Part shown: positions 1,879 through 47,046 of the stretch, piece by piece
Numbering within the stretch: position 1 is the stretch's first letter
How the letters are laid out: the number at the start of each line of letters is the position of its first letter
Position numbers and translations under genes: made by a program
NCBI RefSeq assembly: GCF_023208015.1
Contig: NZ_CP051627.1
Location: forward strand, 1,550,001-1,614,000
Source of the DNA: Thermobifida alba
Lineage (GTDB): Bacteria > Actinomycetota > Actinomycetes > Streptosporangiales > Streptosporangiaceae
Length of the DNA stretch: 64,000 nt
Direction: 5' to 3'
Notes under the pieces: generated by a model
What the model was told of the DNA's origin: nothing
Seen by the model: only the letters and a program-made list of their open reading frames with translations
The model's database searches: none

Positions 1879-1903
1879 TTTGTTTGTCTATAACCCGAAC
1901 TAA
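1879..1903. promoter_or_regulatory. XylR-type operator (site A)
   Basis: An AT-rich imperfect palindrome in the gap between the divergent ROK gene and importer genes. The left half is TTTGTTTGT and the right half CCGAACTAA, 25 bp in all. It matches the layout of the classical XylR box (TTAGTTTGTT, 5 bp, AACAAACTAA) from Firmicutes. Sites B (38518-38542) and C (42039-42063) align with it without gaps. The position suits repression of both divergent promoters. Confidence 0.7.
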
Positions 1904-1979
1904 TTCTATCGCGGTCGCCCTCCGGACTCCAGAGAGTGACCGCAAAACAACAGGGCCTCCCTCCCCCGAAGGGACCACC

Positions 1980-3653
1980 ATGAGACACTCCCGCCCCTCA
2001 CCCGCCTGGACGACGAGCCGGCGCCGCTTCCTCGGCCTGACCGGCACCGCCGCCGCACTGCTGGCCGGCGGCGGCCTGCTGTCGGCCTGCGCCCCCGACG
2101 GACCCCGCCCGGGCAGCAGCGGATCGGCCGCCGACCTCGACAAACTGGACGCGCTCGTCCCCGACTACATCCCGTTCGAGGCCGTCGAACCCGACATCCC
2201 CGGCCGGCACGGCGCCCCGCCCGGCTTCACCTCCTACCCCGACCAGCTGGTCCGCGCGGTGGAGGGCACCCCGGGCAGGGGCGGGACCTACAAGGCGATG
2301 GCCCCGCTGTGGGGCCCCATCCCGCCGGGACTGGGGGAGAACTCCTTCTACGACTTCGTCAACGGCCAGCTGGGCGCCACCGTCGACTTCCAGTTCCAGG
2401 ACGGCAACACCATCATCGACAAGATGAACGCGGTGATCGCCGCCGGCGACGTCGTCGACATCACGATGATCCCCGACTGGGCCATCAACCTCATCCCCGA
2501 CTTCGCCGAGGCCGCCCCCCAGCTGTTCGAGGACCTCACCCCCTACCTGGCCGGAGCTGCGGTCGAGCCCTACCCGATGCTGGCCAGCCTGCCCACCAAC
2601 GCCTGGAAGTGGAGCGTCTTCGGCGACCGACTGCACGGCGTGCCCTGGCCCACCGACCCGCTGTCGGAGTGGATCTTCTACCGCAAGGACCTGTTCGACC
2701 AGCACGGCTGGGCCCTGCCCACCACCGCCGAGGAGCTGTTCGCGCTCGGCGCGGAGATCAACGACCCCAGCAACAACCGCTGGGCCTTCGGCGACTTCTA
2801 CCGGGTGGCCCGCCAGATCTTCCGCGCCCCCCGCGAGTGGCGCCTGGAGGACGGTGAGCTCGTGCACCGCTACGAGACCCCCGAGTTCGAGGAGGCCGTG
2901 GCGTTCATGCGCCGCGTCTACGACGCCAGACTCGTCCACCCCGACATCGCCTCGGGCTCCGGCGCCAACTCCAAGGAGCTGTTCAACAGCGGCAAGATCC
3001 TCCTCACCCAGGACGGCTTCGGCGGCTGGACCGAGGCCTACCAGGCGATCCTGCCGCAGAACCCCGACTTCCGCATGGACCTGGTGCCCGCCTTCGCCCA
3101 CGACGGCGGCACCCCGTCCCTGCACGGCAACGACCCCTCCAACCAGAGCGTGTTCATCAAGAAGGGCCTGGGCGAGGAGAAGGTCACCGAGATCCTGGCG
3201 ATCCTCAACTACTGCGCCGCCCCCTTCGGCACCGCCGAGTACATGGCCTACCGCTACGGCGAGGAGGGCACGCACCACGAGCTCAACGACGACGGCGCCC
3301 CCGAGCTGACCGAACTCGGGCACAAGGAGGTGTCCAACGGCTACCTGTTCATCAGCGGCCGCAACAACGCCATCGCCGAAAGCGAGTACCCCGACTACGT
3401 GGAGTCCTTCACCGCCTGGTTCAACGACGCCGCGCAGTACACCGAGGACAACCCCTTCGAGGGCATCCGCATCCAGCGCCCCTCCTCCTACGCCAGCGCC
3501 GAGCAGCCCACCGAGGACAGGATCACCGACATCCTGCGCGGCCGCCGCGAGGTGAGCGAACTCGGCGACATCGTCGCCCAGTGGCGACGCGACGGCGGCG
3601 ACGCGGCCCGCGACTTCTACGGCGAGGTCCTCGCCGAGTACGGCCGTGATTGA
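1980..3653 (+). CDS. Extracellular solute-binding lipoprotein of carbohydrate ABC importer
   Basis: A 557-residue binding protein, longer than the roughly 430 residues of ordinary CUT1 binding proteins and close to LplA/LipO-type proteins that take larger oligosaccharides. ATG 1980 follows a GAAGGGA ribosome site. The N-terminus has a twin-arginine motif (SRRRFLGLTG), a hydrophobic stretch and a lipobox (LLSAC), so it should be exported folded and anchored to the membrane as a lipoprotein. Type-1 binding-protein features follow (TYKAMAPLWG, WIFYRKDLFDQHGWALPTTA). It overlaps the first permease by 8 bp and sits behind XylR-type site A. The ligand is inferred to be xyloglucan- or xylan-derived oligosaccharides. 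No ATPase is encoded here, so a shared MsiK-type ATPase elsewhere is likely. Confidence 0.88.
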   Translation: MRHSRPSPAWTTSRRRFLGLTGTAAALLAGGGLLSACAPDGPRPGSSGSAADLDKLDALVPDYIPFEAVEPDIPGRHGAPPGFTSYPDQLVRAVEGTPGRGGTYKAMAPLWGPIPPGLGENSFYDFVNGQLGATVDFQFQDGNTIIDKMNAVIAAGDVVDITMIPDWAINLIPDFAEAAPQLFEDLTPYLAGAAVEPYPMLASLPTNAWKWSVFGDRLHGVPWPTDPLSEWIFYRKDLFDQHGWALPTTAEELFALGAEINDPSNNRWAFGDFYRVARQIFRAPREWRLEDGELVHRYETPEFEEAVAFMRRVYDARLVHPDIASGSGANSKELFNSGKILLTQDGFGGWTEAYQAILPQNPDFRMDLVPAFAHDGGTPSLHGNDPSNQSVFIKKGLGEEKVTEILAILNYCAAPFGTAEYMAYRYGEEGTHHELNDDGAPELTELGHKEVSNGYLFISGRNNAIAESEYPDYVESFTAWFNDAAQYTEDNPFEGIRIQRPSSYASAEQPTEDRITDILRGRREVSELGDIVAQWRRDGGDAARDFYGEVLAEYGRD

Positions 3654-4665
3654 CCGGACGTCCCGGCCCCGCCCCGCCGCCCCCGCGCCTCCCCCTCCCA
3701 CCGGGGAGCGCGGGGAGGCCGCGCGCGCCCGCCGGGACCCACAGCCGCGCAGGAAGCCGCTGCGCTCCCGCCTGCGCCAGGACTGGCAGCTGCTGCTGAT
3801 GACGGTGCCCGCCCTGGGCCTGCTCACGGTCTTCCACTACATCCCGACCCTGGGCAACGTCATCGCCTTCCAGGACTACTCCCCCTACCGGGGGATCTGG
3901 GACAGCCCGTTCATCGGCTTCGACAACTTCTACTGGCTGCTGACCGACCCCGCCTTCTGGGACGCGACCCTCAACACCCTCACCATCACCGCGTTCCAGC
4001 TGGTGTTCTACTTCCCCGTGCCCATCGCGCTGGCGATCCTGCTGGACAGTGTGCTCTCCCCGCGGATCCGCATGCTGCTGCAGACCGTGGTCTACATGCC
4101 GCACTTCTTCTCCTGGGTGCTGGTCATCACCCTGTTCCAGCAGATCATCGGCGGAGCGGGCCTCATCTCCCAGGTGCTGCGCCAGCACGGCTACGACGGG
4201 TTGGACATCATGACCAACCCCGACACGTTCCTGCTGCTGGTCACCGCCGAAGTGGTGTGGAAGGACGCCGGCTGGGGGATGATCGTGTTCCTCGCCGCGC
4301 TGGCCGCCATCAACCCCAACCTGTACGAGGCCGCGGCGGTGGACGGGGCCAACCGGTGGCGCCGCCTGTGGCACATCACCCTGCCGGGCCTGCGCCCGGT
4401 CATCGTGCTGCTGCTCATCCTGCGCCTGGGCGACGCCCTCAACGTGGGCTTCGAACAGTTCTTCCTGCAACGCGACGCCGTGGGCCAGCAGGCCGCCGAG
4501 GTGCTGGACACCTTCATCTACTGGCAGACCCTCGCGGTGGGCGAGTGGAGCTACGGCGCGGCGGCCGGCCTGGTCAAGGGCGTGGTCGGCCTGGCGCTGA
4601 TCCTGGTGGCCAACAAGGTCGCCCACATGATGGGCGAGAACGGAATCTACCGGCGGACATCATGA
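3646..4665 (+). CDS. ABC importer permease, LplB/UgpA type
   Basis: A 339-residue membrane permease starting at GTG 3646 inside the end of the binding-protein gene. A basic, Pro-rich cytosolic N-terminus of about 45 residues precedes six predicted membrane helices (the first is LLLMTVPALGLLTVFHYIPT). The EAA loop that contacts the ATPase is visible as YEAAAVDGANRWRRLWHITL. It pairs with the next permease to form the channel for the binding protein's sugar. The stop overlaps the next start (ATGA), showing translational coupling. Confidence 0.88.
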   Translation: MIDRTSRPRPAAPAPPPPTGERGEAARARRDPQPRRKPLRSRLRQDWQLLLMTVPALGLLTVFHYIPTLGNVIAFQDYSPYRGIWDSPFIGFDNFYWLLTDPAFWDATLNTLTITAFQLVFYFPVPIALAILLDSVLSPRIRMLLQTVVYMPHFFSWVLVITLFQQIIGGAGLISQVLRQHGYDGLDIMTNPDTFLLLVTAEVVWKDAGWGMIVFLAALAAINPNLYEAAAVDGANRWRRLWHITLPGLRPVIVLLLILRLGDALNVGFEQFFLQRDAVGQQAAEVLDTFIYWQTLAVGEWSYGAAAGLVKGVVGLALILVANKVAHMMGENGIYRRTS

Positions 4666-5573
4666 CGACACCGACACGGCAGCGCCCGGTCTGGGCCGAG
4701 ACCCCCTCCCTGCCCGAACGCGCCGTCAAGGCGGCGGTGCTGGCCGCGATCGCGCTGGCGGTGCTGTTCCCCCTCTACGTGGTGGTGCTGACCAGCCTCT
4801 CCCCCGCCGCGGCGATCAACGACGCGGGCGGCCTGGTGGTGATCCCCCGCGGGCTCTCCCTGGCCGCCTACGCCGAACTGTTCGCGGGCGGCGTGGTGAC
4901 CCGCGCCGTCGCGGTCAGCATCGGCGTCACCGCGGTGGGCACCGCGATCAGCCTGGCCGCCACCGTCCTGGCCGCCTACGGGCTGGCGCGCCCCGGATCG
5001 CTGCTGCACCGCCCCCTGCTGTTCCTGGTGCTGCTGACCTTCCTGTTCGGCCCCGGCATGATCCCCAGCTACCTGATGGTCAGCTCGCTGGGGCTGATCG
5101 ACAGCTACTGGGCGCTCGTCCTGCCCACCGCGGTCAACGCGTTCAACCTGGTGGTGATGCGCGCGTTCTTCATGAACATCCCCCGCGAGGTCTCCGACAG
5201 CGCCCGGGTGGACGGCGCCAGCGAGTGGAAGATCCTCACCCGCCTGGTGCTGCCCATGTCCAAGGGGGTGGTCGCGGTGGTCGGACTGTTCTACGCGGTC
5301 GGCTACTGGAACGCGTTCTTCAACGCGATCCTCTACATCAACGACAACGCCAAGTGGCCGCTGCAACTGGTGCTGCGCCAGTACGTGCAGCAGGGCCAGA
5401 ACATCAGCGTCGGCGCCCTCGCCGACGCCTCCCAGGCGGCCAGTGCCCTGCCGCCCAGCCTGGCCCTGCAGATGGCGATCGTGGTGATCGCGCTGGTACC
5501 CGTCCTGGCCATGTACCCGTTCGTGCAGCGCCACTTCACCAAGGGCGTCATCATCGGCGCGGTGAAGGGCTGA
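4662..5573 (+). CDS. ABC importer permease, YtcP/UgpE type
   Basis: A 303-residue inner-membrane permease starting at ATG 4662, overlapping the previous stop by 4 bp. It has six predicted helices, beginning with AVLAAIALAVLFPLYVVVL. The EAA motif is SDSARVDGASEWKILTRLVL. The C-terminus FTKGVIIGAVKG is the conserved ending of YtcP-type permeases that accompany long binding proteins. It is the last gene of the importer operon and is followed 7 bp later by a strong hairpin. Confidence 0.88.
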   Translation: MTTPTRQRPVWAETPSLPERAVKAAVLAAIALAVLFPLYVVVLTSLSPAAAINDAGGLVVIPRGLSLAAYAELFAGGVVTRAVAVSIGVTAVGTAISLAATVLAAYGLARPGSLLHRPLLFLVLLTFLFGPGMIPSYLMVSSLGLIDSYWALVLPTAVNAFNLVVMRAFFMNIPREVSDSARVDGASEWKILTRLVLPMSKGVVAVVGLFYAVGYWNAFFNAILYINDNAKWPLQLVLRQYVQQGQNISVGALADASQAASALPPSLALQMAIVVIALVPVLAMYPFVQRHFTKGVIIGAVKG

Positions 5574-5580
5574 GGGCCTG

Positions 5581-5623
5581 CCCGTGCCCGCCGCCCCGGT
5601 TGTGCCGGGGCGGCGGGCACGGG
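5581..5623 (+). terminator. Hairpin terminator after importer operon
   Basis: A perfect 19-bp inverted repeat (arms 5581-5599 and 5605-5623, loop TTGTG), 7 bp after the permease stop. There is no T-run, as is common in high-GC actinomycetes. Confidence 0.75.
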
Positions 5624-5903
5624 TGCCGCGGGCCCTCGCGGGGGCGGGGCCTGCGGCACCCCCGGCAGGACGTCACCGGGTGGACACGGTCTGCCGCACA
5701 CCGCTACAATTCCCGACGCAAAGGCTCATCACGGAAAGGTTCGGGACCACGGACAGCTCGATGCGGGAGCAGGCGCACGGCGCCGTGACGCACAGCTTTT
5801 ATCTGACCTAGGTCCCCACGCCAGTCAGCGTGCCCTCTTTCTGCTCGACGCCCTCCTCCTCGTCGTCCTCTTCGCCCTGCTGTGCGGCCTGACGGTCTTC
5901 TCC

Positions 5904-6110
5904 GTGGCCTTCGGCTGGGGCTGCGCCCGCCTGCTGCTGCGGCGACTACGACTCCGTGGAGAGCTCGGGACGGCTCCGCAGGGCACGGCGAACACGGTCT
6001 GCGGCCCGGTCACCGGAACGGTGGTGCAGAGCGGACGGATCGACGCGGTCCACGTCCACCTGGGCCCCCACCCCGCGGCCCCGCACCCCTGCGCGCACCG
6101 GACCGACTGA
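5904..6110 (+). CDS. Possible small membrane protein, start uncertain
   Basis: The frame is open from before 5760 to TGA 6108-6110. From about 5832 it encodes a clear hydrophobic helix (LFLLDALLLVVLFALL, then CGLTVFSVAFGW), followed by a basic stretch (LLLRRLRLRGE) and a 50-residue His/Pro-rich tail. The only standard start in frame is GTG 5904, which would cut off most of the helix. Either an unusual start is used upstream or the reading frame is decayed. I do not recognise the protein. The start of the DNA between 5640 and 5900 shows no other feature. Confidence 0.3.
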   Translation: MAFGWGCARLLLRRLRLRGELGTAPQGTANTVCGPVTGTVVQSGRIDAVHVHLGPHPAAPHPCAHRTD

Positions 6111-6337
6111 GACGCGCCGGCCGGCCCCGGTCCCTCCGCGGTTTCCGGCCGGCCAGGGCGGCGGATCCCGCTCCAAGGGGCTGCACGGTCTTGCCTTCCC
6201 CGCCGATGGCTGTCATGTTCGAAGGGCCGGCCGTCACGGTCCGTGCCGACCGGCCCCACCCGCCGGAGTCGTCCTCCCTGCTCGACCGGTTCGCCCCCGG
6301 GCCTGCCGGAACCCGCCCCCCCACGTCCGGAGCGCCC

Positions 6338-7093
6338 ATGACCGCCGCGTTGGAGACCATCGAGCTGACCAAACGGTTCGGCGGGGCCACCGCCGTCGAC
6401 CGCATCACCCTGTCCGTCCCCCAGGGGTCGTTCTACGGCCTGGTGGGCCAGAACGGCGCGGGCAAGACCACCACCCTGTCGATGGCCGTCGGCCTGCTGC
6501 GCCCCGACTCCGGGCGCTCCCGCATCCTCGGCGTCGACGTGTGGGAGGACCCCGCACGCGCCAAGGCGCTGGTCGGAGTGCTTTCCGACGGGCTGGCCAT
6601 GCCGGAGTGGCTGACCGGCCGCGAGGTGCTGACCTACCTGGGAGCGCTGCGCGGACTGGACGAGGACGTGGTCGCCGAACGGACCGGGGAGCTGCTGGCC
6701 GTCCTGGAGCTGGACCGGGCGGAGACCACGCTGGTCATCGACTACTCCACCGGCATGCGCAAGAAGATCGGCCTGGCCACCGCGCTGCTGCACGCCCCGC
6801 GGCTGCTGGTGCTGGACGAGCCGTTCGAGGCCGTCGACCCGGTCTCGGCCGCCACGATCAAGACGATCCTGCGGGGCTTCGTCGCGGGCGGCGGGTCGGT
6901 CGTGCTGTCCAGCCACGTCATGGCGCTGGTGGAGGAGCTGTGCGACCACGTCGGCGTGATCGACCGGGGCAGGGTCGCGGCGGCCGGCCCCCTCGCCGAG
7001 GTCAGGGGGTCGTCGACCCTGGAGGAGCGGTTCGTGTCGCTGGTCGGCACCGACACCGGCGGGATACGGGAGTTGTCGTGGCTGTCGCGCTGA
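6338..7093 (+). CDS. ABC transporter ATP-binding protein (ABC-2 exporter type)
   Basis: A 251-residue ATPase. It has Walker A (GQNGAGKTT), a signature region read as DYSTGMRKKIGLA, Walker B (LLVLDEPFEAVDP) and the H-loop (SSHVMALVEEL). ATG 6338 gives the usual N-terminus (MTAALETIELTKRFGG); an in-frame ATG at 6206 would add 44 unlikely residues. It powers the membrane protein encoded next, whose GTG start lies inside its last codons. The substrate is unknown; such pairs export lipids, antibiotics or peptides. Confidence 0.88.
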   Translation: MTAALETIELTKRFGGATAVDRITLSVPQGSFYGLVGQNGAGKTTTLSMAVGLLRPDSGRSRILGVDVWEDPARAKALVGVLSDGLAMPEWLTGREVLTYLGALRGLDEDVVAERTGELLAVLELDRAETTLVIDYSTGMRKKIGLATALLHAPRLLVLDEPFEAVDPVSAATIKTILRGFVAGGGSVVLSSHVMALVEELCDHVGVIDRGRVAAAGPLAEVRGSSTLEERFVSLVGTDTGGIRELSWLSR

Positions 7094-8878
7094 CCATGGC
7101 CCGTATGAAGCTGGCCGTCGTCCGCCACTCGATGAGCGGGCGGCGCGCCGGGTTCGCCGCCGTCGGCGTCCTGCTCGGCGCCGCCGGGGCGGCGGGCACG
7201 GTCGCACTCGCCTTCACCGGGGCCGAACTGCTCGCCGCCGGCTACGCGGTGTGGCTGCTGGGCTGGCTGCTCGGCCCGATCTTCACGGGCGGCGGGGACG
7301 AGACGGTCCGCCCGGAGTTCTTCACCCCCCTGGGCCTGTTGCCCCGGCGGCTGGCGGCCGGACTGCTGGCGGCCGCGTTCGTCGGCGCCGGCCCCGCTCT
7401 CAGCCTGCTGGCCCTGGGCGGGCTGGTCGTGCTCGGCGCCGGCCGCGGCGCGGCGGCCGCCGCCGTCGCCCTCCCCGCCGCGGTGCTGCAGTTGGCGCTG
7501 TTCGTCCTGCTGTCCAAGGTCGTGGTCGCGCTGTTCGGCCTGGTCCTGCGCAGCCGGGCGGGCGCGATCGCCTCGGGGGTGCTCAACGCCCTGGTCCTGG
7601 CGCTGCTCAGCCAGGGCGGGGTGGTCGCGGTCGCCTACGGCGAGGCCGGGGGCCTGCCTCCGGCGGTGGACGCCGTGCTGCACGCCCTGCCCTCGGGCTG
7701 GGGCGTGGTCGCGGTGGAGTCGGCGGCCCAGGGCCGCTGGGCGCTGTCGGCGGGTGTGCTCGCCGGCCAGGTCCTGCTCGTCGCGCTGCTGCTCGCGGCG
7801 TGGGCGGCGCTGCTGACCCGGCGGGTCGGGGTGGCGCGGACCACGGCCGGCGGCCGCGGCCGCATGCGCGCCGCCACGGCCTCGGGCGCGGTGCTGGGCC
7901 GGGAGCTGCGCACCTGGTCCCGCGACCCGGTGCGCAGCCACCAGTTGACGTTCGCGCTGGCCTACGGGGTGTTCTTCGCCGCGCTGCCGCTGTTGACGGG
8001 CTGGGAGCAGATGCTGCCGTGGTCGGGGCCGGTCTTCGTGCTCATGGCCGCCATGCTGTCGGCCAACGTCTACGGCGTCGACGGAACCGCGCTGTGGCTG
8101 CTGCTGCTCACCCCCGGGGGCGACGACGTGCGCGGCCGCCAGCTGGCCTGGCTGCTGTTCGTCACGCCGGCGGCACTGGCGCTGACCGTCGGGTTCACCG
8201 TCCTGGTCGGCGGGCCGTGGCCGCTGCTGCTGGCGGTCCTGTCCGCCCTGCTGGGCGGCTGCGCGGGCCTGGTGCCGCTGGTGTCGGTGTACGCGCTCGT
8301 GCCCGGCGTCGACCCGCACCGGCGTTCCGGCAACCCGCTGCGCCTCACCGAGGACGAGGGGTCGGCGACCGGGATGATGTACGTCATGATGCTGCTGGGC
8401 CTGCTTCCTGCGGTGCCCGCCGCGGTCGCGGCCGTCCTGTACGGCTGGGCGGGGGTGCCCGTGGGCCTGGCCACGGGGCTGCTGTGCTGGTGGGGACTGG
8501 GGGCGCTGGCCGCACGCGGGCTGCGCGCGCGGCCCCGAACTGCTGCACATGATGCGCACCGGGCGCCGCGACCCGGGCACGTCCCGGCTGGCGGACTTCG
8601 GTGAACTGCCCCGGCAGAAACAGTTCCTGGTGGGCGTGTGCATGACGCTGTGCCCGGTCGCGCTGTTCCCGCAGGGCATCGTGCCGGGCGTGTTCAAGGT
8701 CACCGGGATGGACAGCAGGGCCTGGTTCCTGGCCCTGTACCTGCCGCCGTGGACGCAGTGGCCGGTGATCGCCGTCATGGTCGCCCTGGGGGTGGCGCTG
8801 GGCGTGGCCGGTCTGCGTCTGATGCAGCAGGACCGCCGGCCCGGACAGGACGCGGCGGAGGAGGCCGCGGGCTCCTGA
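7078..8878 (+). pseudogene. ABC-2 type permease, split by a frameshift near 8525-8535
   Basis: The partner membrane protein of the preceding ATPase. It starts at GTG 7078 (GGGAG 5 bp upstream), or alternatively ATG 7096. Many predicted helices run to about 8525 (LGALAARGLRAR). That frame then ends at TGA 8602-8604 with unlikely sequence, while the +2 frame continues as GPELLHMMRTGR, LPRQKQFLVG and two further helices (LCPVALFPQGIVPG; WPVIAVMVALGVALG) to TGA 8878. The second part is the expected C-terminus of this permease family, so one base is probably missing or extra in the GC run around 8525-8535. It may be a real lesion or a sequencing error. A separate 109-residue ORF starting at ATG 8549 is the alternative. 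Confidence 0.7.
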
Positions 8879-9376
8879 CCGGCCGGCCCGGCACAGGGGC
8901 CGTCGGGGAGGTCCCACGGCAGGGCTGCCGCAGCGGGCCGCCGGTTGCCGCCCCGACGGCACGGCCCGCACGGCACTGTTTCCCCTGTCGGAGAATTCCC
9001 GGAAAAGGGCCGTGTTCCGCGCCCTGCCTCCGGTGCCGGATGGTACGCGTCTTTGGGGCAGTCGACCCCTTTTTCTTCCTTTTCTGTGGACTCCCCGGTG
9101 GGCACCGCGGTCTCCACGGTGAGGATTTCTCCGAAATTCTCACCCTCGACACACGGGAGAACCCGCGGCTCACCGATTTCCCGAATGGCCGGAAACGGCC
9201 TCGCGGTGCATTCCACCCTGGTTGAGCTGCGCCGACCGCTCATCTGCCGCACTCCGCGACGAAAGCCGGATTTTTTTGTGCCTTCTGCGCGGATTAGACT
9301 CGGCCGTGTCCACGCGGCACCCCCGTACCGGTGGCGTGCTCTTCCCTTCCGCCCCCGACCAGGAATTCTCTTCGTC
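8879..9376. other. Intergenic region, 498 bp, no gene recognised
   Basis: No credible coding region. The right half is less GC-rich (poly-T at 9271-9277, then TAGACTC) and probably carries the promoter for the FtsX-type gene, but no clear -35/-10 pair can be fixed by eye. Confidence 0.4.
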
Positions 9377-11919: not shown

Positions 11920-12019
11920 GCGCGGGGCCGCTTCTCCACGCAACCGGCGCGGCGGAACGCACACGCCACGGGCACGGGTCCCGCCGGTGCGCGGCGGGAC
12001 GACAGAGAGGCAGGACGAG

Positions 12020-12775: not shown

Positions 12776-12799
12776 CCACGCCGCGGGCTCCCGGCCACC

Positions 12800-13246: not shown

Positions 13247-13495
13247 CGCGGTCCCGGGAAGAAGCGTGAACAGGGGCGAGAACCACGCCACGGCCTGGCA
13301 GACAGGCCTCCGTACGACCACTGCCGCCCCTTCCCGCGCACACGAGAGGGTCCGTTCCCGACGGGCTTCCCCGGGCCGGGGGACAGCCGTACCGGCCCGG
13401 GGCCTCCGCGGTTCCCCGAACCCCGCCGCGGCCCCGACCGCCGCGGCCCCCGCGGTGGACGGTCGCACCGCCCCTCCGGCTCGGCAGCGCGACGG

Positions 13496-33107: not shown

Positions 33108-33236
33108 CAGTGGCGGGTGGTGCCGTCGGCGTGCGTAGTCAGCAGAGATGCGGCGTCGGGCACGGTGAGTGCCGCGGGCCCGCGTCTCCTGGAACGGTCA
33201 CGGGGCGGTGCCCCTTTCTCCAGCGGGCGGACAGGG

Positions 33237-33331
33237 CGGCGGCCCGCACCGGGGTCAGGGGTGCGGGCCGCCGGGGTCCGGTGGTCGATGAGGGTCCCGG
33301 CCCGCCCCGGGCGGGGTTGGGGCGGGCCGGG
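33237..33331 (-). terminator. Two strong hairpins after the GH74 gene
   Basis: On the minus strand, just after the GH74 stop, a 13-bp stem (33296-33308 with 33319-33331) is followed by a perfect 14-bp stem (33237-33250 with 33260-33273). They also separate the GH74 operon from CRISPR array 2. The stretch 33108-33236 shows no gene. Confidence 0.75.
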
Positions 33332-33338
33332 GGTCGGG

Positions 33339-36119
33339 TCAGGCGCAGGGCTCGCCGTTGAGGGTGAACTCGCTGGGAGCGGTGCCCGGGGCGGTGGAGC
33401 CGATGAAGCCGAAGCTCGCGGTCCCGCCGGGGGCGATGGTGCCGTTCCAGCCGGCGTCGCGGGCGGTCACGTCCGCTCCGGTCTGGGTGACCTCGGCGTT
33501 CCACGCCTGCGCGATCTGCTGGCTGCCGGGGAAGGACCACGTCAGTTCCCAGCCGCTGATCGTGCTGTCACCGGTGTTGGTGATCGTCACCTCGCTCTGG
33601 AAGCCGTTGCCCCACTCGTTGGCGACGCGGTAGGAGACCTCGCAGGAGGCGCCGTCGCCGGGCGGGTCCGTGGGCTCCGTCGGCGGGTCGGTCGGCTCCT
33701 CAGTGGGCGGATCCGTGGGCTCCGTCGGCGGGTCCGTCGGGTCCTCGGTCGGCGGGTCCGTGGGCTCGGTGGGCGGGTCGGTCAGGTCGCCGACGACCAC
33801 GCCGCGGCCGTTGGTGCCGATGTAGACGCGGCCGTAGACCTCGGGGTCGCCGGTGATGGCCGCGCCGGTCCACGCCCACTGGTGCTGGTCGTCGTTGATG
33901 CGCGTCCAGGTCTGCCCGGCGTCGTCGGAGCGGAAGATGCCGCGCACCCCGTTGATCTTCGACGAGGTGTAGACCGCCGGGTAGCTCCTGCCGGGAGCGG
34001 GCTTGCCGAAGCCGACCACGTCGCCCTCGTCCACCTCGCCGAAGCGGGTGAAGGTGGCCCCGGAGTCGGTGGAGCGCCACAGGCCGTAGGTGCTGTTGGC
34101 CTCGCCGCCCGCCAGCCAGACGTCGCCCTCGTGGCCGGGCACCGCCGCGAAGCGGATGTTGCCCTGCGTGGGCAGGCCGGTGGCCGCGGACTTGGTGAAC
34201 GTTGCGCCGCCGTCGGTGCTGGTGTAGAACGCGCCGTCGGCGAAGGCGTAGAACTTGTCCGGGTTGACCCGGTCGGCCTCCACGCGCGCCCCCGCGGGAA
34301 CCCCCGTCGACGCGGTCCACGACGAGCCCAGCGTGGTGGAGTGGTGCACGCCCGTGCCGTCGGGGCTCCACACGATGCGCGAACCGTCGGCGTTGACCGC
34401 CACGGTGCCCGCCCCGGTGACGCCGGGCGGCTCCTGGCCCGCCCACCAGCTGGACCCGCCGCTGGTGGAGATGCCGATGTGGGAGTCGACCTCGCCGTCG
34501 ACGGCCTCGCCGACGCGGGCCATGACGTTCGGGCTCAGTTCCGCGAAGTCGATGCTGCGGGTGTTGCCGTGGAAGGGCGCGTCGAACATCGCGTCGGGGA
34601 CGACGTCGATGTCCTCGTGCACGAACCCGCCGATGTCGCCCAGCGCGGAGACCAGTTCGGTGGCGCCGGGCGGGGCGATGAGGTCCTGCACGGCGGTCTC
34701 CTCGATGCCCTGGGCGCGGACCCTGATGTCGACGGTGCCGCCGGAGTCCCAGTCGGTGAGGTTGTCGCTGCCGTAGATGGTGGCCCCGGTGCCGTACATC
34801 ATGCGGTCGGAGTCGAACGGGTCGATCTCGAAGGCCTGCGTCATCCAGCCGAGCTTGGGGCTGACCTCGGGCGGGTTGTCCTGGTTGTTGAAGTGCAGCC
34901 AGGGTGCCCCGGAGATGTCGTGGTCGTAGCGCAGGGTCCGGTCGGGGTAGCCGCTGAACTCCCAGATGCGGCTCCAGGTGGCGCCGCGGTCGGTGGAGCG
35001 CCACACCTGGATGTCGGGCCACCACAGGATTTGGCTGACCACCATGATCGTGTCGGGGTTCTGCCGGTCGATGGTCAGGCCGCTGAAGCCGTACTCGAAG
35101 CCGTCGGGGTCGGCGGGGGTGATGTCGGTCCAGGCGCCGGTGGCGGCGTCGTAGCGCCACACCTCTCCGTCGGAGCCGTCGTAGGGGCCTCCGGTGTCGC
35201 TGGTGGCGATGTAGAGCAGCCCGTTGACGTGGTCGAACACGCCCTTCTGCGCCAGGAAGCCGGTGGGCTGGCCGGGGATGCGCTCCCAGGTGGCGCCGCC
35301 GTCGGTGGAGCGGTAGACGGTGTTGTCCTTGTCGGCGACCCCGACGTAGATGTCCTGGGTGACCTGGCCGGGGGAGGCGCTGGAGGGGTCGAAGGTCACC
35401 CACACCACGCCCTGGTTGTCGCCCTGGTAGCCGCCGACGTCGGAGGGGTCGGCGGCGTAGTTGCCCGGGTTGGGGAAGTTGGTGACCTCGTTCCAGGTCG
35501 CGCCGTGGTCGGTGCTCTTCCACAGGCCGTGGCCGCTGGGCGCGCCGAAGTACAGCACGCTGTTGTCGTTGGGGTCGACGGCCAGCCGTTCGCCCATGCC
35601 GCGGCCGGGCATGTTGCCGCCCAGTTTGAACGGCAGTTCGGTGGTCTGCCAGGTCCGCCCGCGGTCGGTGGAGCGTTTGATCGCGCCGTTGTTGGGGTCC
35701 CAGTCGTTGGTGTAGGTGCCCACGGCCGCGTACACCCGGTCGGTGTCGACCGGGTCGGTGGCGATGCTGACGACGCCGCTGTGGCCCCAGTCGTCCCAGC
35801 CGACGTGGTCCAGCAGCGGGATCCACCGCTCGGTGTCGGGGTTCCAGCGGTAGGCGCCGCCGATGTCGGTGCGCGCGTAGATGAGGTCGGGTTCGCTCTG
35901 GTTGAAGACGATGCCGGGGACGAAGCCGCCGCCGACGATCTCGACGTTGCCCCAGGTGTAGCCGGTGTCCGCGACGGCCGGGGCGGCTGCGGAGTGGACC
36001 GCGCCGAGCGCGGCCACGGTGGCCGCCGTCGCGACGCAGGCCAGCGCGCGGGCCAGGACGCCGCGTCTGCCCGGGGAAGCGGGCGAGGATGGTGGTGACA
36101 GGTGGTCGGTCGTTGTCAC
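33339..36119 (-). CDS. xeg74: Secreted xyloglucanase, GH74 with C-terminal CBM2
   Basis: A 926-residue secreted endo-xyloglucanase. GTG 36119 is chosen (GGAGCATGAC before it); an ATG 5 bp upstream is out of frame. Signal peptide: GRRGVLARALACVATAATVA, ending near AAAPAVADTG. The GH74 twin beta-propeller opens YTWGNVEIVGGGFVPGIVFN and carries many S-x-D-x-G-x-T-W repeats (STDRGRTWQ, STDHGATWN, STDGGATWE). A linker of PTDPPTEPT repeats leads to a family 2 cellulose-binding module (CEVSYRVANEWGNGFQSEVT ... GEPCA) with paired Cys. It cuts the xyloglucan backbone outside the cell, feeding the importers. Second gene after GH31, behind XylR-type site B. Confidence 0.92.
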   Translation of the reverse strand: MTTTDHLSPPSSPASPGRRGVLARALACVATAATVAALGAVHSAAAPAVADTGYTWGNVEIVGGGFVPGIVFNQSEPDLIYARTDIGGAYRWNPDTERWIPLLDHVGWDDWGHSGVVSIATDPVDTDRVYAAVGTYTNDWDPNNGAIKRSTDRGRTWQTTELPFKLGGNMPGRGMGERLAVDPNDNSVLYFGAPSGHGLWKSTDHGATWNEVTNFPNPGNYAADPSDVGGYQGDNQGVVWVTFDPSSASPGQVTQDIYVGVADKDNTVYRSTDGGATWERIPGQPTGFLAQKGVFDHVNGLLYIATSDTGGPYDGSDGEVWRYDAATGAWTDITPADPDGFEYGFSGLTIDRQNPDTIMVVSQILWWPDIQVWRSTDRGATWSRIWEFSGYPDRTLRYDHDISGAPWLHFNNQDNPPEVSPKLGWMTQAFEIDPFDSDRMMYGTGATIYGSDNLTDWDSGGTVDIRVRAQGIEETAVQDLIAPPGATELVSALGDIGGFVHEDIDVVPDAMFDAPFHGNTRSIDFAELSPNVMARVGEAVDGEVDSHIGISTSGGSSWWAGQEPPGVTGAGTVAVNADGSRIVWSPDGTGVHHSTTLGSSWTASTGVPAGARVEADRVNPDKFYAFADGAFYTSTDGGATFTKSAATGLPTQGNIRFAAVPGHEGDVWLAGGEANSTYGLWRSTDSGATFTRFGEVDEGDVVGFGKPAPGRSYPAVYTSSKINGVRGIFRSDDAGQTWTRINDDQHQWAWTGAAITGDPEVYGRVYIGTNGRGVVVGDLTDPPTEPTDPPTEDPTDPPTEPTDPPTEEPTDPPTEPTDPPGDGASCEVSYRVANEWGNGFQSEVTITNTGDSTISGWELTWSFPGSQQIAQAWNAEVTQTGADVTARDAGWNGTIAPGGTASFGFIGSTAPGTAPSEFTLNGEPCA

Positions 36120-36183
36120 GTCATGCTCCTGATGTGGGGGTGGAGCCTGCCCGGGACGGTCCCGGGCCCGGGGTTGGGGCCCC

Positions 36184-38481
36184 TCAGCGGTGCAGTTCCA
36201 CGTGCTCGGGCGGGGTGAGCCCGTGGACGGGAACGATCTCGACACCGGTGACGGGGGCCGGGCCGTCCACGGTGACGCGCAGGGTGTCGCCTTCGCGGAC
36301 GGCGGTGACGACGGTGTCGCCGTCGACGTCGGTGAGGACGGTGCGCCGTCCCTGACCGCCCCAGCTGACCAGGGTGATCGAGGAGAACGGGCCGTCGGCA
36401 ACGGTGGTGGCCGCCTCCGCCACCGGGATGAGCGCGCCCAGGCGCACGAACAGCGGGAAGCGGTCGAGCGGGCTGTGCAGCCGCACCGAGCGGCCGCCGT
36501 CGTGGACGCGTCCGCTCCAGTAATCCACCCAGCGGCCGGGCGGCAGGTAGACGTCGCGCACGCCCTCGGGGCCGCAGACGGGCGCCACCAGCAGGTCGGG
36601 GCCGAGCAGGTACTCCAGTTCGGCCTGCCAGGACAGCGGGTCGTCGGGGTGGTCGACGCACAGTGCGCGCATCAGCGGGGTGCCGGTGCGCGCCGAGACC
36701 GCGGCCGCCGAGTACAGGTAGGGCATGAGCCGGTAGCGCAGCAGCAGCGCCTGCCTGGCCGCCTCCTCCGCCTCGGGGGCGAAGCGCCAGGGCTCGCGGG
36801 TGGTGGTGCCGTGGAAGCGCACCAGCGGGGAGAACGCGCCGAACTGGGCCCAGCGCGCGTACAGCACGGTGTCGGGGGTGCCGTTGAACCCCCCGGCGTC
36901 GTGGCTCCAGAACGGCACGCCGCTGAGTCCGTGGCTGAGGCCGCCGCGCAGGGTGGCGGCCATGGCGGGGAAGCTGCACTGGCTGTCGCCGCTCCACTGG
37001 GCGGAGTGGCGCTGCCCGCCCAGGTAGGAGGAGCGCGCCCAGACCAGGTCGTGGCCCCTGACCTCGCGGGTGGTCTCGGCGACGACGTCGTTGAACAGCA
37101 GCGTGTAGACGTTATGCAGCTCGGTTCCGGTCATGCCGTTGGCGGCCACCGCGTCGGCGGGCACGCCCTCGCCGAAGTCGGTCTTGAACACCGCCACGCC
37201 CTGCTGGAGCAGGGGGCGCAGCCGGGAGGCGTACCATTCGGCGGCCTCGGGGTTGGTGAAGTCGACGATGCCCACGGGCGGGTGGGAGCCGTGCCAGGCG
37301 TCGGCGAGGTAGACCTCTCCGGAGCTGCGGCGCAGGAAGTAGCCGCGTTCGACGGCGTGCGTATAGTGCGGGCTGAGGTGCGAGATGTAGGGGTTGATCC
37401 ACAGGCAGACGCGGAAGCCCAGCTCGGCGAGGTCAGCCAGCATCTGTTCGGGGTCGGGGAAGGCCTCGCGGTCCCAGTCCAGGTCCGACCAGTGCCCCTC
37501 GGCCTGCCAGTAGCAGTCCAGGTGCAGCACGTCGCAGGGGATGCCGCGCTCGCGGATGGTGCGGGCGCGTTCCATGACGCGCTGCTGGGTGTCGTGGATG
37601 AACCCGGAGGAGATCCAGGCGCCCAGCGCCCACTTGGGCGGCAGGGAGGGGCGGCAGGTGAGGGTGGTGAACCGGTCCAAGACCTCGCGGGGGCCGGGGC
37701 CCGCGATGACGTGGTAGTCGAGCACGTCGTCGGGGACGACCAGCTGCACGCAGCTGTGCGTGGACTGGCCCATGTCGAACTCGGCGGGGCTGCCGGTGTC
37801 CAGCAGCAGGCCGTAGCCGCGGCTGGACACGTACAGCGGCACGTTCTTGTAGGCGCGGTCGGACTCGGCGCCGAAGGCGTCGAAGTTCCACATGCGCACC
37901 CGTCGTCCGCGCAGGTCGAAGGGGGTGAAGCGTTCACCGAGCCCGCCGAGGCGCTCGTCCGCGGCCAGCGCGAGGGACTCGTGGTAGGCGGTGGTGCCCT
38001 CGACGGTGCTGCGACCGAACGGCAGGGTGCGGCAGCGTCCGCTGATGTCGACGTGGCCGCGGTCCTGTTCGGTGAGCAGGCGGCCGGAGTCGTCGAGGAA
38101 GCGCAGGTGCCAGGGGTCGAGGCTGAGGTGGGCGCGCAGTGGGCCGCTGGCCACGACGACGTGGTCGTCGGCGACGGTGACCTGGGCGGTGGCGTCGGGG
38201 TCGGGGTGGACCAGGGTGATGGCGCGTGCGGCGCGGGTGGTGGCGTCGGGGCGGGCGCCGAGGCGGACGCGGAGGACGCCGGCGGCGGAGGCGGTGATGC
38301 TGGCGGTGAGGGTCTCGCCCGTGGCGGTGGCGGCCTTGAGTTCGATCCCCCGGTCGGTGACCTCGACGAGGTCGGCCCGGGTGACGGCGGCGGGGCCTGC
38401 ATCGCCGGGGCGGGGGACGGGCAGCGCCGGGGGGTCGGCGACGAAGCGCTCGTGGGGGACCATGGGAGGCCGGTAGAGCAT
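36184..38481 (-). CDS. GH31 alpha-xylosidase (alpha-glucosidase family)
   Basis: A 765-residue enzyme. ATG 38481 is chosen because AAGGAG lies 6 bp upstream. No signal peptide, so cytosolic. The N-terminal beta-sandwich is followed by the GH31 barrel: PKWALGAWISSG, CDVLHLDCYWQAEGHW, nucleophile region VFKTDFGEGVPADAV, and SGVPFWSHDAGGFNG. The KTDFGE sequence is typical of YicI-type alpha-xylosidases. It removes xylose side chains from imported xyloglucan oligosaccharides. It is the first gene of the operon with GH74 (64-bp gap), and a XylR-type palindrome lies 37-61 bp before its start. Confidence 0.88.
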   Translation of the reverse strand: MLYRPPMVPHERFVADPPALPVPRPGDAGPAAVTRADLVEVTDRGIELKAATATGETLTASITASAAGVLRVRLGARPDATTRAARAITLVHPDPDATAQVTVADDHVVVASGPLRAHLSLDPWHLRFLDDSGRLLTEQDRGHVDISGRCRTLPFGRSTVEGTTAYHESLALAADERLGGLGERFTPFDLRGRRVRMWNFDAFGAESDRAYKNVPLYVSSRGYGLLLDTGSPAEFDMGQSTHSCVQLVVPDDVLDYHVIAGPGPREVLDRFTTLTCRPSLPPKWALGAWISSGFIHDTQQRVMERARTIRERGIPCDVLHLDCYWQAEGHWSDLDWDREAFPDPEQMLADLAELGFRVCLWINPYISHLSPHYTHAVERGYFLRRSSGEVYLADAWHGSHPPVGIVDFTNPEAAEWYASRLRPLLQQGVAVFKTDFGEGVPADAVAANGMTGTELHNVYTLLFNDVVAETTREVRGHDLVWARSSYLGGQRHSAQWSGDSQCSFPAMAATLRGGLSHGLSGVPFWSHDAGGFNGTPDTVLYARWAQFGAFSPLVRFHGTTTREPWRFAPEAEEAARQALLLRYRLMPYLYSAAAVSARTGTPLMRALCVDHPDDPLSWQAELEYLLGPDLLVAPVCGPEGVRDVYLPPGRWVDYWSGRVHDGGRSVRLHSPLDRFPLFVRLGALIPVAEAATTVADGPFSSITLVSWGGQGRRTVLTDVDGDTVVTAVREGDTLRVTVDGPAPVTGVEIVPVHGLTPPEHVELHR

Positions 38482-38517: not shown

Positions 38518-38542
38518 TTAGTTTGGCTTCCAAACGAACAAA
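38518..38542. promoter_or_regulatory. XylR-type operator (site B)
   Basis: Left half TTAGTTTGG, right half AACGAACAAA; 25 bp, aligned without gaps to sites A and C and to the classical XylR box. It sits directly upstream of the GH31-GH74 operon in a short AT-rich stretch. Confidence 0.75.
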
Positions 38543-38632: not shown

Positions 38633-39541
38633 TCAGGCGCGACGGTGGAACGGCGCGATCACCTCGCGGACCCGCTCCGCCGGCGACCGGTCGGGATAGT
38701 CGTGGGCGATCAGGCACAGCAGCTGCCGCAGGTACAGCACGGGCAGCCGCTCCCGCCAGCCCGGCTCGGGCCGGGCGGCCTCGACGTAGGCGTCGAAGAA
38801 GCGGGCGGACTCGGGCGGGCGGTGGGTGCACCACAGCATGCTGAGGTCGGTCTCCGGCCAGTTGTAGGAGACCGCCGGGTCGACGAGCACCGGCTCGCCG
38901 TCCACTCCGGCGATGATGTTGCTGGTCCACAGGTCGCCGTGGGTCAGGGACGCGGGGACGGCGGGGACGATCTCGGGAAGCCGCTCGCACAGCCGCTCCA
39001 GCGCGCGGCGCTCGGCGTGGTCGAAGGCGGCGGCCACCTGCGGTTCGTCCAGCCAGCGCAGGATGCGGCACCGGGCGTAGAACTCGTGGCCGTCGGTGTG
39101 CCACTCGTTGTACTGGCGTTTCCGTCCCAGCCAGCCGTCGCGGTGCCAGCCGAAGCGGTCGTGGACCGTGGTGGTGTGCAGGGCGGCCACGGCGTGCCCG
39201 AGCCGCTCCCAGAAGCCGGGGGTGTCGGGGCGGGGGCGCAGCGCCCGGAGCACCAGTATCTCGGGGGTGACCAGCAGCACCTCGGGGGTGGCGACGCCGC
39301 CGAGGTCGCGCAGCGCCGCCAGCCCCTCGGCCTCGACGGGGAACAGGTCGTCCCCGGGGGCCTCGGCCAGGGTCTTGACGAAGACCCGGGAGCCGTCGGA
39401 CAGCTCGGCGATGCGCGCGACGGCGGCCACACCGCCCTCGACCGGCCGCAGGGAGGCCACTCCGTCCAGGCCCGCCGCGGCCAGGCGGCGCCGCAGCAGG
39501 GCGTCGACGTCGCGGTCGGGCTGGGGGGACCGTCCGGTCAT
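38633..39541 (-). CDS. Fructosamine/ketosamine kinase family protein
   Basis: A 302-residue protein kinase-like enzyme from ATG 39541; an upstream GTG is possible. Landmarks are RVFVKTLAEAPGDDLFPVEA (ATP-binding Lys and acidic helix), the catalytic loop LTHGDLWTSNIIAG and VLVDPAVSYNWPETDLSMLW (metal-binding Asp). Members phosphorylate sugars bound to amines, starting repair of glycated proteins; some bacterial ones may act on free sugar derivatives. It lies between GH31 and GH95 in the same direction, so a role in handling pentose or hexose adducts during sugar use is possible but not shown. Confidence 0.82.
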   Translation of the reverse strand: MTGRSPQPDRDVDALLRRRLAAAGLDGVASLRPVEGGVAAVARIAELSDGSRVFVKTLAEAPGDDLFPVEAEGLAALRDLGGVATPEVLLVTPEILVLRALRPRPDTPGFWERLGHAVAALHTTTVHDRFGWHRDGWLGRKRQYNEWHTDGHEFYARCRILRWLDEPQVAAAFDHAERRALERLCERLPEIVPAVPASLTHGDLWTSNIIAGVDGEPVLVDPAVSYNWPETDLSMLWCTHRPPESARFFDAYVEAARPEPGWRERLPVLYLRQLLCLIAHDYPDRSPAERVREVIAPFHRRA

Positions 39542-39740
39542 GCAGACCACTCCGTTCCTGTTCCGCACAAGGGCGTCTCCGAACTTTCGATGACGGTGTG
39601 CCCCGTGCAGCGGAACGGGCACCGGAACGTGCGGCAGCAGAGGAATCGCAGCCACCGCCGGACAACCGACTCGCGCCCCTCCCGGCCCGGGGCTGACTCC
39701 CCGGAAACGACCACGAAGGCGCCGGGGGCGCGTTCCCCGT

Positions 39741-42002
39741 TCACGGTCGCGGGGTGAGCGGTGCGGCCACCTCCCCGGTCCTGCCCGGTGCCAGTCCCAC
39801 CGCACGCGCCGTGCCGTCGGGCAGGCCGACGCGCACGCGCACGGGCTCGCGCGCGCTCAGCCGGGCCCGCATCCGCCCGTCCGCCCACTCCAGGTGCTCC
39901 ACGACGACGCCGCCGCGCCCGCACAACCCGTGCGCCTCCCCCTCGGGCCAGGCTGCGGGCAGCGCCGGCAGCAGGTCGACGCCGCCCTCCCGGGACCGCA
40001 GCAGCATGGCCGCCACCACCGCCGGGAACCCGCCGCACAGGTCGGTGTTGAACAGCGCGCCCCGGTTGTGGGTGGAGACCAGGGTGGGCCTCCAGTAGCG
40101 GGTGGCCATGAGCTCCAGCGTCTCGTGGGCCTCGCCCGCCAGTCCCAGGTGGGCCGCTGCCAGGCCCAGCTGGACCAGTCCGAACGCCATCTCGTCGGAC
40201 TCGGCCGAACGCCACCAGGCCAGGCGGGCGCGCACGGCGCGCACCGCGGCGGCGCGCAGCCGGGGGTCGGCGAAGGCCGGATCGCCCTCGTACCAGAACG
40301 GGAACAGGTGGGAGGCGTGGCGGTGGGCGTGGCGGTCGGTCTGCGCCAGCCCCCCGGCGCCGCTGGCCCACTCGGCCAGTTCCCCGGCGGGTGAGACGCG
40401 GTAGCCGGGCAGTCGCGCGCCCAGCGCCGCCCAGCGCCGCGCCCCGGGCAGGCCGAGCACGCGGTGGGCGCGCAGCAGGTTGCGGACCAGGTCGCGGACG
40501 GCGGCGACGTCCATGGTGGCGTTGGCGCAGGCCTGGGAGTCGGAGTCGGCGGGGGTGTTCTCCGGCGAGTAGGAGGGGACGAAGCCGTCGTCGGTGAGGA
40601 AGTCCTCGTAGAACTCCGCGGCGGCGCGCAGGAACGGCAGCGCCCGCTCCCGCAGGAAACCGGTGTCGCGGGTGTGGCTGTAGTGGTCCCAGTACAGGCG
40701 GGCCAGCCAGGCCGCGCCCGCGGTCCACAGGGTCAGGCACCAGGTGGGGCCGAAGTGGTTGTGGCGGCCGTGGGTGGACACGTGCGCGGGCACCAGCACG
40801 CCGCGGCAGCCGTAGAGGCGGCGGGCGTTGTCGGTGAAGTCGTCGACGAGGGACTCCACCAGGTCGAACACCGGCAGCATCAGCTCCGGCGCGCCCAGCG
40901 GGTGCAGGGCGGCCACCGCGGAGGCGAGGTTGCCGTCGAGGGTGTAGCCGGAGCTCCACGGCGGCGAGTGGGTGCCGCTCCACACGCCCTGCAGGGTGGG
41001 CGGCCGTTCCCCGGTGGCGCACACGACGGCGTAGTGGCCGGCCTGCACGAGGCGTTCGGTGAGGTGCGGGCTCGGGCCCGCGGCGAGCAGTTCCTCTCCT
41101 GTGGCGGGGGGCCGGGCGGCCTGCCCGGCGGGGGTCAGGCGGATGCGGGCGCGTCCCACCAGGTCGGCGTGGCGGGGGGTGTGGCGGTCCAGTAGCGCGG
41201 CGAAGTCGGGGTCCAGCGCGTCCAGGGCGGCCCCGAATCCGTCCGGGCCGCGGCTCGGGGCGGGGGTGGTGCGGGCCAGGACCAGCACGTGTTCCGCGCC
41301 GCTGATGCGCAGCCGTCCTGGGCCCCGCTGCTCCACCCGTGCGCCGGGGGCGGTGATCCGGCAGGTCAGCGTGTAGCCGCTGGGGGTGGTGGGCCAGGGG
41401 CGCGGGAAGGCGGTGCGCAGGGCCAGCGTGTCGCCGTCGGCGGTCAGGACGGTGTCGGCGGGGGTGGGCGGGGTGCCGGGGATCGGTCCGAGTCCGAGGG
41501 TGCCGTCAACGCCGTCGGCGGCGCTGAGGCGCAGTACCACGACGTCGTCGGCGCGGGAGACGAAGACCTCGCTGCGCAGCCCGCAGGGCAGTTCCTCGCG
41601 CACCACGGCGCTGCCGTGGTCGCAGTGGCGGACCAGGGAGCCCCAGGCGGGGGCGGCGGGGGTGAAGGTGAGGGTGCCCGCGCCGGTGAGCGGGTCGATC
41701 CAGCGGGTGCGGGCGTATCCGGGGTGCTGGGCGCGGGCCAGTTCCACGACGCGTTCGGCGGCGGCCTGCGGGGCGCCCGAGCGCAGCAGGGCGCGCAGCT
41801 GTGCCAGGGCGGGGGCGGTGTGCGGGGCGGGCAGCGGCTCCTCCAGCGGCCAGAACAGCCGTTCGTGGCTGAGGGTGAGGCGCACCTGGGTCTGCACGGA
41901 GTGCGCCAGGACGCCCTGGCGGCCGTTGCCGGTGACGAGGCCCTCCTCCCAGTCGGCGGCGGGCAGGCGGGTGGTGACCCCGTGGGGGGCGGGTCGGGTC
42001 AT
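39741..42002 (-). CDS. GH95 glycosidase (alpha-L-fucosidase-like)
   Basis: A 753-residue cytosolic enzyme without signal peptide. GH95 landmarks in order: ADWEEGLVTGNGRQGVLAHS near the N-terminus, RPPTLQGVWSGTHSPPWSSG, YTLDGNLASA, GFVPSYSPENTP with TMDVAAVRDLVRNL, HRHASHLFPFWYEGD and ALFNTDLCGGFPAVVAAML. The last keeps the acidic residue of the family's DGNFG region. The family's N-x-N motif is here D-x-N (LDGN), so specificity may differ from alpha-1,2-fucosidase. In a xyloglucan locus it would remove terminal fucose or L-galactose. Divergent from GH42, sharing operator site C. Confidence 0.8.
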   Translation of the reverse strand: MTRPAPHGVTTRLPAADWEEGLVTGNGRQGVLAHSVQTQVRLTLSHERLFWPLEEPLPAPHTAPALAQLRALLRSGAPQAAAERVVELARAQHPGYARTRWIDPLTGAGTLTFTPAAPAWGSLVRHCDHGSAVVREELPCGLRSEVFVSRADDVVVLRLSAADGVDGTLGLGPIPGTPPTPADTVLTADGDTLALRTAFPRPWPTTPSGYTLTCRITAPGARVEQRGPGRLRISGAEHVLVLARTTPAPSRGPDGFGAALDALDPDFAALLDRHTPRHADLVGRARIRLTPAGQAARPPATGEELLAAGPSPHLTERLVQAGHYAVVCATGERPPTLQGVWSGTHSPPWSSGYTLDGNLASAVAALHPLGAPELMLPVFDLVESLVDDFTDNARRLYGCRGVLVPAHVSTHGRHNHFGPTWCLTLWTAGAAWLARLYWDHYSHTRDTGFLRERALPFLRAAAEFYEDFLTDDGFVPSYSPENTPADSDSQACANATMDVAAVRDLVRNLLRAHRVLGLPGARRWAALGARLPGYRVSPAGELAEWASGAGGLAQTDRHAHRHASHLFPFWYEGDPAFADPRLRAAAVRAVRARLAWWRSAESDEMAFGLVQLGLAAAHLGLAGEAHETLELMATRYWRPTLVSTHNRGALFNTDLCGGFPAVVAAMLLRSREGGVDLLPALPAAWPEGEAHGLCGRGGVVVEHLEWADGRMRARLSAREPVRVRVGLPDGTARAVGLAPGRTGEVAAPLTPRP

Positions 42003-42038
42003 GGCTGCTCCCTTGTGCCGGGCGTCGGGACCGGATAG

Positions 42039-42063
42039 TTAGTTTGTTTAGTAGCCAAAATAA
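42039..42063. promoter_or_regulatory. XylR-type operator (site C)
   Basis: The left half TTAGTTTGTTT is identical to the Firmicutes XylR half-site; the right half is CCAAAATAA. It lies between the divergent GH95 and GH42 genes and ends at the GH42 ribosome site (AAGGAGG), so binding could block both. Confidence 0.75.
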
Positions 42064-47044: not shown

Positions 47045-47046
47045 CG

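Follow-up and report, generated by a model that had tools for sequence, protein, structure and literature searches.

Analysis of a 64,000-nucleotide stretch of Thermobifida alba DNA (the whole stretch is referred to here as the window) points to a xyloglucan-utilisation regulon, in which a ROK-family protein, here named XgR, would repress its target genes via three operators, A, B and C. Judged from sequence comparisons, we put the probability of this reading at about 0.75. In the proposed scheme, XgR is a ROK repressor encoded divergently from a sugar importer, and it would bind the motif TTWGTTYG-N9-CRAACWAA and close variants, shutting four promoters: those of XgR-GH3, the importer, GH31-GH74 and the GH95/GH42 pair. 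GH74 would cut xyloglucan outside the cell, oligosaccharides would enter, and a sugar derived from them would release XgR; GH95, GH42, GH31 and GH3 would remove fucose, galactose, xylose and glucose, respectively. We infer XgR binding, repression, the inducer and the importer substrate, the last of these from gene context.

Genes and operators of the candidate regulon

XgR is encoded on the minus strand at 560..1810 by an open frame of 416 amino acids with a GTG start. The Pfam ROK match scores 123.3 bits (cut-off 22.9) and helix-turn-helix (HTH) matches cover residues 22-71, giving the N-terminal winged HTH plus ROK arrangement that defines a ROK regulator; the best solved relatives are the ROK regulator 1z05 and Mlc. 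It is, as the original prediction had it, the only ROK regulator inside the window, in a genome with six ROK matches, of which two others besides XgR carry an N-terminal HTH. One such further HTH-ROK gene (C1:2123090-2126691, L026) adjoins a ribose/xylose-type ABC importer, a setting that presumably resembles that of Streptomyces Rok7B7. On the 3' side of XgR, on the same strand, lies the start of a GH3 glycosidase gene (2..535, Pfam GH3 N-terminal domain), which continues past the window to C1:1547737 (full open reading frame in L017). On the plus strand, divergent from XgR, are the importer genes: a sugar-type solute-binding protein (SBP) with a lipoprotein-like start (1980..3653, Pfam SBP_bac_1) and two ABC permeases (3646..4665 and 4674..5573, both Pfam BPD_transp_1).

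The remaining enzymes are encoded further to the right. An open reading frame at 33339..36401 on the minus strand, with a true start about 330 nt inside it and a signal-peptide-like start, corresponds to a secreted GH74-type endo-xyloglucanase with CBM2 (Pfam CBM_2 and sortilin/BNR-type repeats). No GH74 model was matched by this protein in the profile search, and the GH74 label is our assumption, taken from the name in the original prediction and from the fold. The GH31 alpha-xylosidase (36184..38481, minus strand, ATG at 38481) matches Pfam GH31, and scores 605.1 bits with the NCBIfam alpha-xylosidase model, just below its cut-off of 606. To its right lie a fructosamine-kinase-like gene (38633..39805, minus strand, Pfam Fructosamin_kin), which is only a possible member of the regulon, a GH95 glycosidase of the alpha-L-fucosidase family (39741..42002, minus strand, Pfam GH95 catalytic domain) and a GH42 beta-galactosidase (42075..44066, plus strand, three Pfam GH42 domains). 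Together, GH74, GH31, GH95, GH42 and GH3 could dismantle fucosylated xyloglucan. A second sugar ABC importer and a LacI regulator are found near GH42 (46142-50544), and this block is kept in genome G042 and in T. cellulosilytica; G111 retains its importer.

The three operators are 25 bp each and align without gaps, at 1879..1903 (A), 38518..38542 (B) and 42039..42063 (C), in agreement with the letters and positions originally given. Operator A separates XgR from the importer genes; its distance is 68 nt to the XgR start codon and 76 nt to the SBP ATG. Operator B precedes GH31-GH74, as would be expected of a xyloglucan regulon, and is found 36 nt ahead of the GH31 ATG, with TTGATT before it in the direction of GH31. 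Operator C has the GH95 ATG at 36 nt on one side and the GH42 ATG at 11 nt on the other. Their G+C content is 32%, 36% and 24% for A, B and C, compared with 72.7% for the window. They had been described as palindromes; all are inverted repeats, but A and B are imperfect ones, with 14 of 25 positions self-complementary in each (18 of 25 in C). The proposed kinship with the Firmicutes XylR operator was borne out. All three sites carry the core TTAGTTTG...CAAACTAA of the Bacillus subtilis XylR operator TTAGTTTGTTTGGGCAACAAACTAA, whose letters were taken from the available part of PMC12034463, and they share 16 (A), 19 (B) and 19 (C) of 25 positions with it. The XylR site of Anaerocellum bescii has the same core, according to the accessible text of PMC12285236. 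Site C is the most deviant of the three and has no TTGAC box.

XgR and XylR as sister clades

XgR is 99% identical to its named relative in T. cellulosilytica TB100 and 90% identical to that in T. fusca NBRC 14071, which fits the origin of the window in Thermobifida. The dN/dS of XgR is 0.13-0.26, and by this measure the gene is under purifying selection. The original description of XgR as a XylR-type regulator holds in part: it is a ROK protein with a XylR-like operator core, but it belongs to a separate clade. In a tree made by a quick method with a distant outgroup, 81 XgR rows and 30 XylR rows form the opposite sides of one branch (SH-aLRT 95). On this phylogeny, XgR is the sister clade of XylR and not XylR itself. 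The link to xylA/xylB that marks XylR is not seen for the window protein, which is divergent from an ABC importer, and a xylB homologue is found at 4 of the best 80 of 269 XgR loci.

The zinc motif CxCGxxGC is usual in the ROK family and is not part of the Pfam criterion. It is carried by all 30 XylR proteins and by 78 of the 81 XgR, the exceptions being those of the window, T. cellulosilytica and T. fusca; the XgR of G111 and G042 also lack it. The loss of the zinc cysteines was noted at window positions 560-1810 and at L060, L061, L148 and L149.

Conservation of the operators in relatives

Named genomes were scanned for relatives, and the best 80 of the 269 obtained were examined. In the 450 bp ahead of the ROK gene, 76 of these 80 loci have an operator with 0-2 mismatches: 34 loci match exactly, 40 have one mismatch and 2 have two. 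The reversed pattern, used as a control, always had at least 4 mismatches at these loci. Four of the 80 (L169, L216, L219 and L223) had no operator found upstream of the ROK gene. Of 20 XgR loci also described, 17 have a site with 0-2 mismatches beside the ROK gene, and L067, L073 and L077 do not. The divergent arrangement of the ROK gene and a sugar importer is seen in relatives as well. Among the best 80 of 269, an SBP was recognised at 60 loci and GH3 at 71, and at 48 no homologue of GH74, GH31, GH42 or GH95 was found in the stretch examined.

Of 200 genomes of the family, 62 contain the exact pattern and none the reversed one. When XgR presence is defined as a best E below 1e-110, the exact site is found in 54 of the 76 XgR genomes, in 4 of the 34 that have a different related ROK but no XgR, and in 4 of the 90 that have neither (Fisher 7e-21, ignoring kinship). 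Exact sites were also seen by a distant ROK (27-31% identity) or by unrecognised genes in six genomes (G175, G070, G041, G136, G135 and G177; L103, L142 and L144-L147).

Sites B and C are retained in G111 and G042, and B in T. fusca; site C is present with one mismatch in G111, G042 and N. trehalosi. In six Microbispora-type genomes the importer has its own site and is far from the ROK gene; in the one-contig genome G167 the ROK gene is at 8.65 Mb and the importer site at 2.01 Mb. A regulator of this kind can thus lie far from its targets.

T. cellulosilytica (G086; L129 and L130) keeps GH74, the importer, XgR and GH3, but lacks about 1.4 kb of GH31, GH95, and the 5' portion of GH42. Site A is intact there, B carries 2 mismatches, and a search for C gave no match in this genome. 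As read from its sequence, T. cellulosilytica is a natural knock-out, in which the enzymes are degraded and their operators, too, have decayed or disappeared.

The canonical XylR of the same genome

About 20 kb to the left of the window is a gene for a protein of the XylR clade (C1:1528387-1529640), which is 43% identical to XgR and, unlike XgR, divergent from xylB-xylA (the xylA-xylB and XylR block as a whole covers C1:1525.6-1529.6 kb, L025:7700-11640). A role of this XylR at B and C, either by itself or jointly with XgR, is the likeliest of the alternatives, although we consider it unlikely; the enzymes would then answer to xylose, and A to XgR. XylR operators of other genera have the core TTAGTTTG-N9-CGAACTAA, as do XgR operators. 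For comparison, two matrices were built: that of XgR used 42 distinct operators of other genera, each chosen as the best consensus match ahead of the ROK gene, and that of XylR used only 12 sites. Scores with the XgR and XylR matrices are 37.4 versus 23.1 for A, 34.5 versus 33.0 for B and 32.0 versus 35.4 for C. With B and C scoring nearly alike under the two matrices, these scores by themselves assign only A clearly to XgR. Furthermore, in two genomes without XgR (G164 and G174; L091 and L094), a XylR-clade ROK is near GH3/importer genes bearing an XgR-like site with one mismatch, which is perhaps a change of regulator; in a third such genome, G183, no site was found.

Such a role of XylR is disfavoured by the existence of B-type sites in genera that lack a XylR-clade ROK. 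These sites precede GH31 in G031, G161, G181, G064, G022 and G125, and GH74 in G051, and no XylR-clade ROK at E<1e-130 was found in any of these seven genomes. It is on these grounds that B and C are assigned to XgR. At the same threshold, a XylR-clade ROK is present in 6 of the 76 XgR genomes, and 48 of the 70 without it carry the exact site; some of these 70 have further ROK paralogues with 44-47% identity to XylR. In addition, the operator of XylR itself has moved away. The xylR-xylB site TTAGTTTTGTGTTTGAACGAATTGG scores 38.9 with the XylR matrix and at best 6.4 with the XgR matrix; in contrast to XgR operators it is a symmetric TTA/TTA site, shifted from the common core, and it is near-identical in 4 of 4 Thermobifida genomes. 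The presence of XgR was considered as the cause of the shift and rejected, as G054 is shifted without an XgR match, and N. trehalosi (G056) has both genes and is unshifted. The assignment of the regulon to the window ROK gene is therefore upheld as far as the operator is tied to the XgR gene, and qualified by a second regulator, XylR, whose matrix scores are about equal at B and C.

Other regulators and chance

Control of the enzyme genes by the LacI-type regulator encoded at 49492-50544, or by CelR, with the palindromes being secondary, is highly improbable. GH42 does have a LacI gene and a further ABC importer 2-6 kb away (this place is kept in G042, and the G111 stretch shows the importer only), and there is a precedent in Thermotoga maritima, where the LacI-type GloR is predicted to regulate xyloglucan genes (PMC3750489, as far as its available text goes). 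GloR is like XgR in this respect, but is of an unrelated family and has another operator. The LacI protein CelR of Thermobifida fusca exerts palindrome-based control of plant-polymer genes (PMC3377646, available part), and so resembles XgR in genus, type of target and palindromic site. Allowing up to 2 mismatches, the CelR palindrome TGGGAGCGCTCCCA does not occur in the window, and CelR control was rejected on this ground. Moreover, the sites directly in front of the enzyme genes are ROK-type operators, which accompany GH31 in other genera too.

The uniqueness of the three sites was assessed at the level of window and genome. With an earlier consensus and up to 3 mismatches, only A, B and C match in the window (100 shuffles: mean 0.11, largest 1), in a scan that is circular, given that the consensus was derived from the sites themselves. 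In the 4,903,256-base (4.90-Mb) genome, matches with 0-1 mismatch are found only at A, B and C, both for the consensus and for its relaxed form. Matches with 2 and 3 mismatches number 11 and 12 for the consensus (19 and 16 for a reversed-pattern control) and 4 and 4 for the relaxed consensus (control 7 and 7). These are at chance level, and a weaker set of sites in the genome was set aside, the reversed control being at least as frequent; one weak match, at C1:1528270, is the xylR-xylB operator. The XgR matrix ranks A, B and C as the top three places of the window, although it is not wholly independent, its operators having been picked by a consensus that traces back to the window. The next matches (13.9 and 13.7 bits) overlap C, the next non-overlapping place scores 0.9, and maxima in 10 Markov shuffles do not exceed 6.8. 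The sites thus form one operator family, as had been proposed, tied to the ROK gene and xyloglucan genes across genera. No RNA element was matched in the window by Rfam at the gathering threshold. The sites are short, AT-rich and intergenic, and the consensus was drawn from them, but chance resemblance of AT-rich promoter stretches has a negligible probability and is refuted for practical purposes by the other-genera matrix, the absence of the motif elsewhere in the genome, the lack of reversed matches in 200 genomes and the retention of the operator at 76 of the 80 loci.

Polarity of the operators and a predicted promoter

XgR operators are polar, with one TTT half and one TTA half. In the direction of the importer, the TTT half comes before the TTA half in 61 of 64 distinct A-type sites. 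Among 133 distinct site contexts, site C being left out, we counted those with a TTGAC or TTGAT box in the 7 nt that precede the operator. This box is present at 16 of 17 sites facing GH31, the single site facing GH74 and all five facing xylB (where a TTGACT box abuts the site of actinobacterial XylR, a similarity to XgR); it is found at none of 77 facing the importer, none of 9 facing the ROK gene and 1 of 24 others. The one GH31-facing site that lacks the box (L136:8070) is 728 nt away from GH31; another site at this locus does have it, at a distance of 36 nt. The other GH31-facing operators end 34-43 nt before the GH31 start, except for one (85 nt).

A 17-nt spacer from the box would put a -10 element, CAAACT, within the TTA half. 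The GH31-facing operators thus overlap a predicted promoter, which suggests repression via promoter occlusion: the -35 element (TTGAC or TTGAT) would touch the left edge of the operator, and as the operator would cover both the spacer and the -10 element, bound XgR would exclude RNA polymerase. This predicted promoter arrangement was read from aligned sequences of relatives and applies to B-type sites only, not to A or C; a sigma-70 consensus scan around A, B and C called no promoter-like site.

A more ambitious reading is tentative, and we hold it to be possible rather than probable. XgR may constitute a distinct class of ROK repressor, with members in three or more actinobacterial families, whose ligand is a xyloglucan-derived sugar other than free xylose; it would act via a polar promoter-operator cassette and, in Thermobifida, would have dispensed even with the zinc site. 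Candidate ligands would be isoprimeverose or a larger oligosaccharide. In such a cassette the -35 box would be fixed at the operator edge and the -10 element would lie inside the TTA half, while the TTT half could not act as a -10 element in the opposite direction.

Relation to known systems

Thermobifida is a model for plant-cell-wall degradation. In a search of an open-access library, we found control of plant-polymer genes in this genus for cellulose only (CelR), and no ROK-controlled xyloglucan regulon in actinobacteria. Firmicutes XylR, as represented by B. subtilis and A. bescii in the available texts, is like XgR a ROK protein with the same operator core, and some clostridial/Firmicutes XylR regulons include alpha-xylosidase genes (PMC2873477, accessible part). 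XgR differs from it in that its regulon is predicted to consist of xyloglucan import and breakdown and not xylAB, its operators are polar, the Thermobifida proteins are without the zinc cysteines, and its clade is distinct from that of the genome's own actinobacterial XylR. The predicted xyloglucan regulon is a variant of the XylR/ROK type, with an operator core that was already known. Xyloglucan genes of Ruminiclostridium cellulolyticum are linked to the XygS/XygR two-component system, as cited in the available portions of PMC8579813 and PMC10766802; this system is of an unrelated protein family and has different operators.

A defined xyloglucan operator and regulator would allow joint induction or derepression of GH74, the alpha-xylosidase and the importer. 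The genome's two paralogous ROK proteins, whose operators are nearly alike, would be a clean case for studying insulation between repressors, and the relatives offer natural experiments, in the distant importer of the Microbispora type and in the degraded enzymes and operators of T. cellulosilytica.

Separation of importer and enzyme genes

The importer and GH74 are separated in the window by 27.8 kb (5574..33338), as analysed by genome comparison. The corresponding distances are, in increasing order, 0.15 kb (N. trehalosi, G056), 0.57 kb (G042), 0.66 kb (T. fusca), 4.2 kb (G111) and 18.1 kb (T. cellulosilytica, in a draft sequence with a run of N inside). As the importer-GH74 order is contiguous in outgroups, insertion is the likely direction of change. 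The original prediction attributed the split to the CRISPR region. A CRISPR-array block of about 9.8 kb (23405..33227) does intervene and is absent from this place in T. cellulosilytica, where the alignment jumps from 23404 to 33228, but about 18 kb more (window 5.6-23.4 kb) separates the genes and is common to T. cellulosilytica at 95-99%. Insertions have thus probably pushed the xyloglucan gene groups 30-40 kb apart, with the regulon held together in trans.

The CRISPR block has two arrays (23856-26861 and 29779-33043) with a 61-nt period and slightly different repeats. Among five open reading frames examined at 26.3-29.6 kb, Pfam recognised an HTH-DUF5753 protein and an HATPase-like protein, and no Cas protein was found. 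The 5.8-23.4 kb block encodes an ABC/FtsX exporter, a two-component system, a type I PKS-like protein, a methyltransferase and a Smoa_sbd protein.
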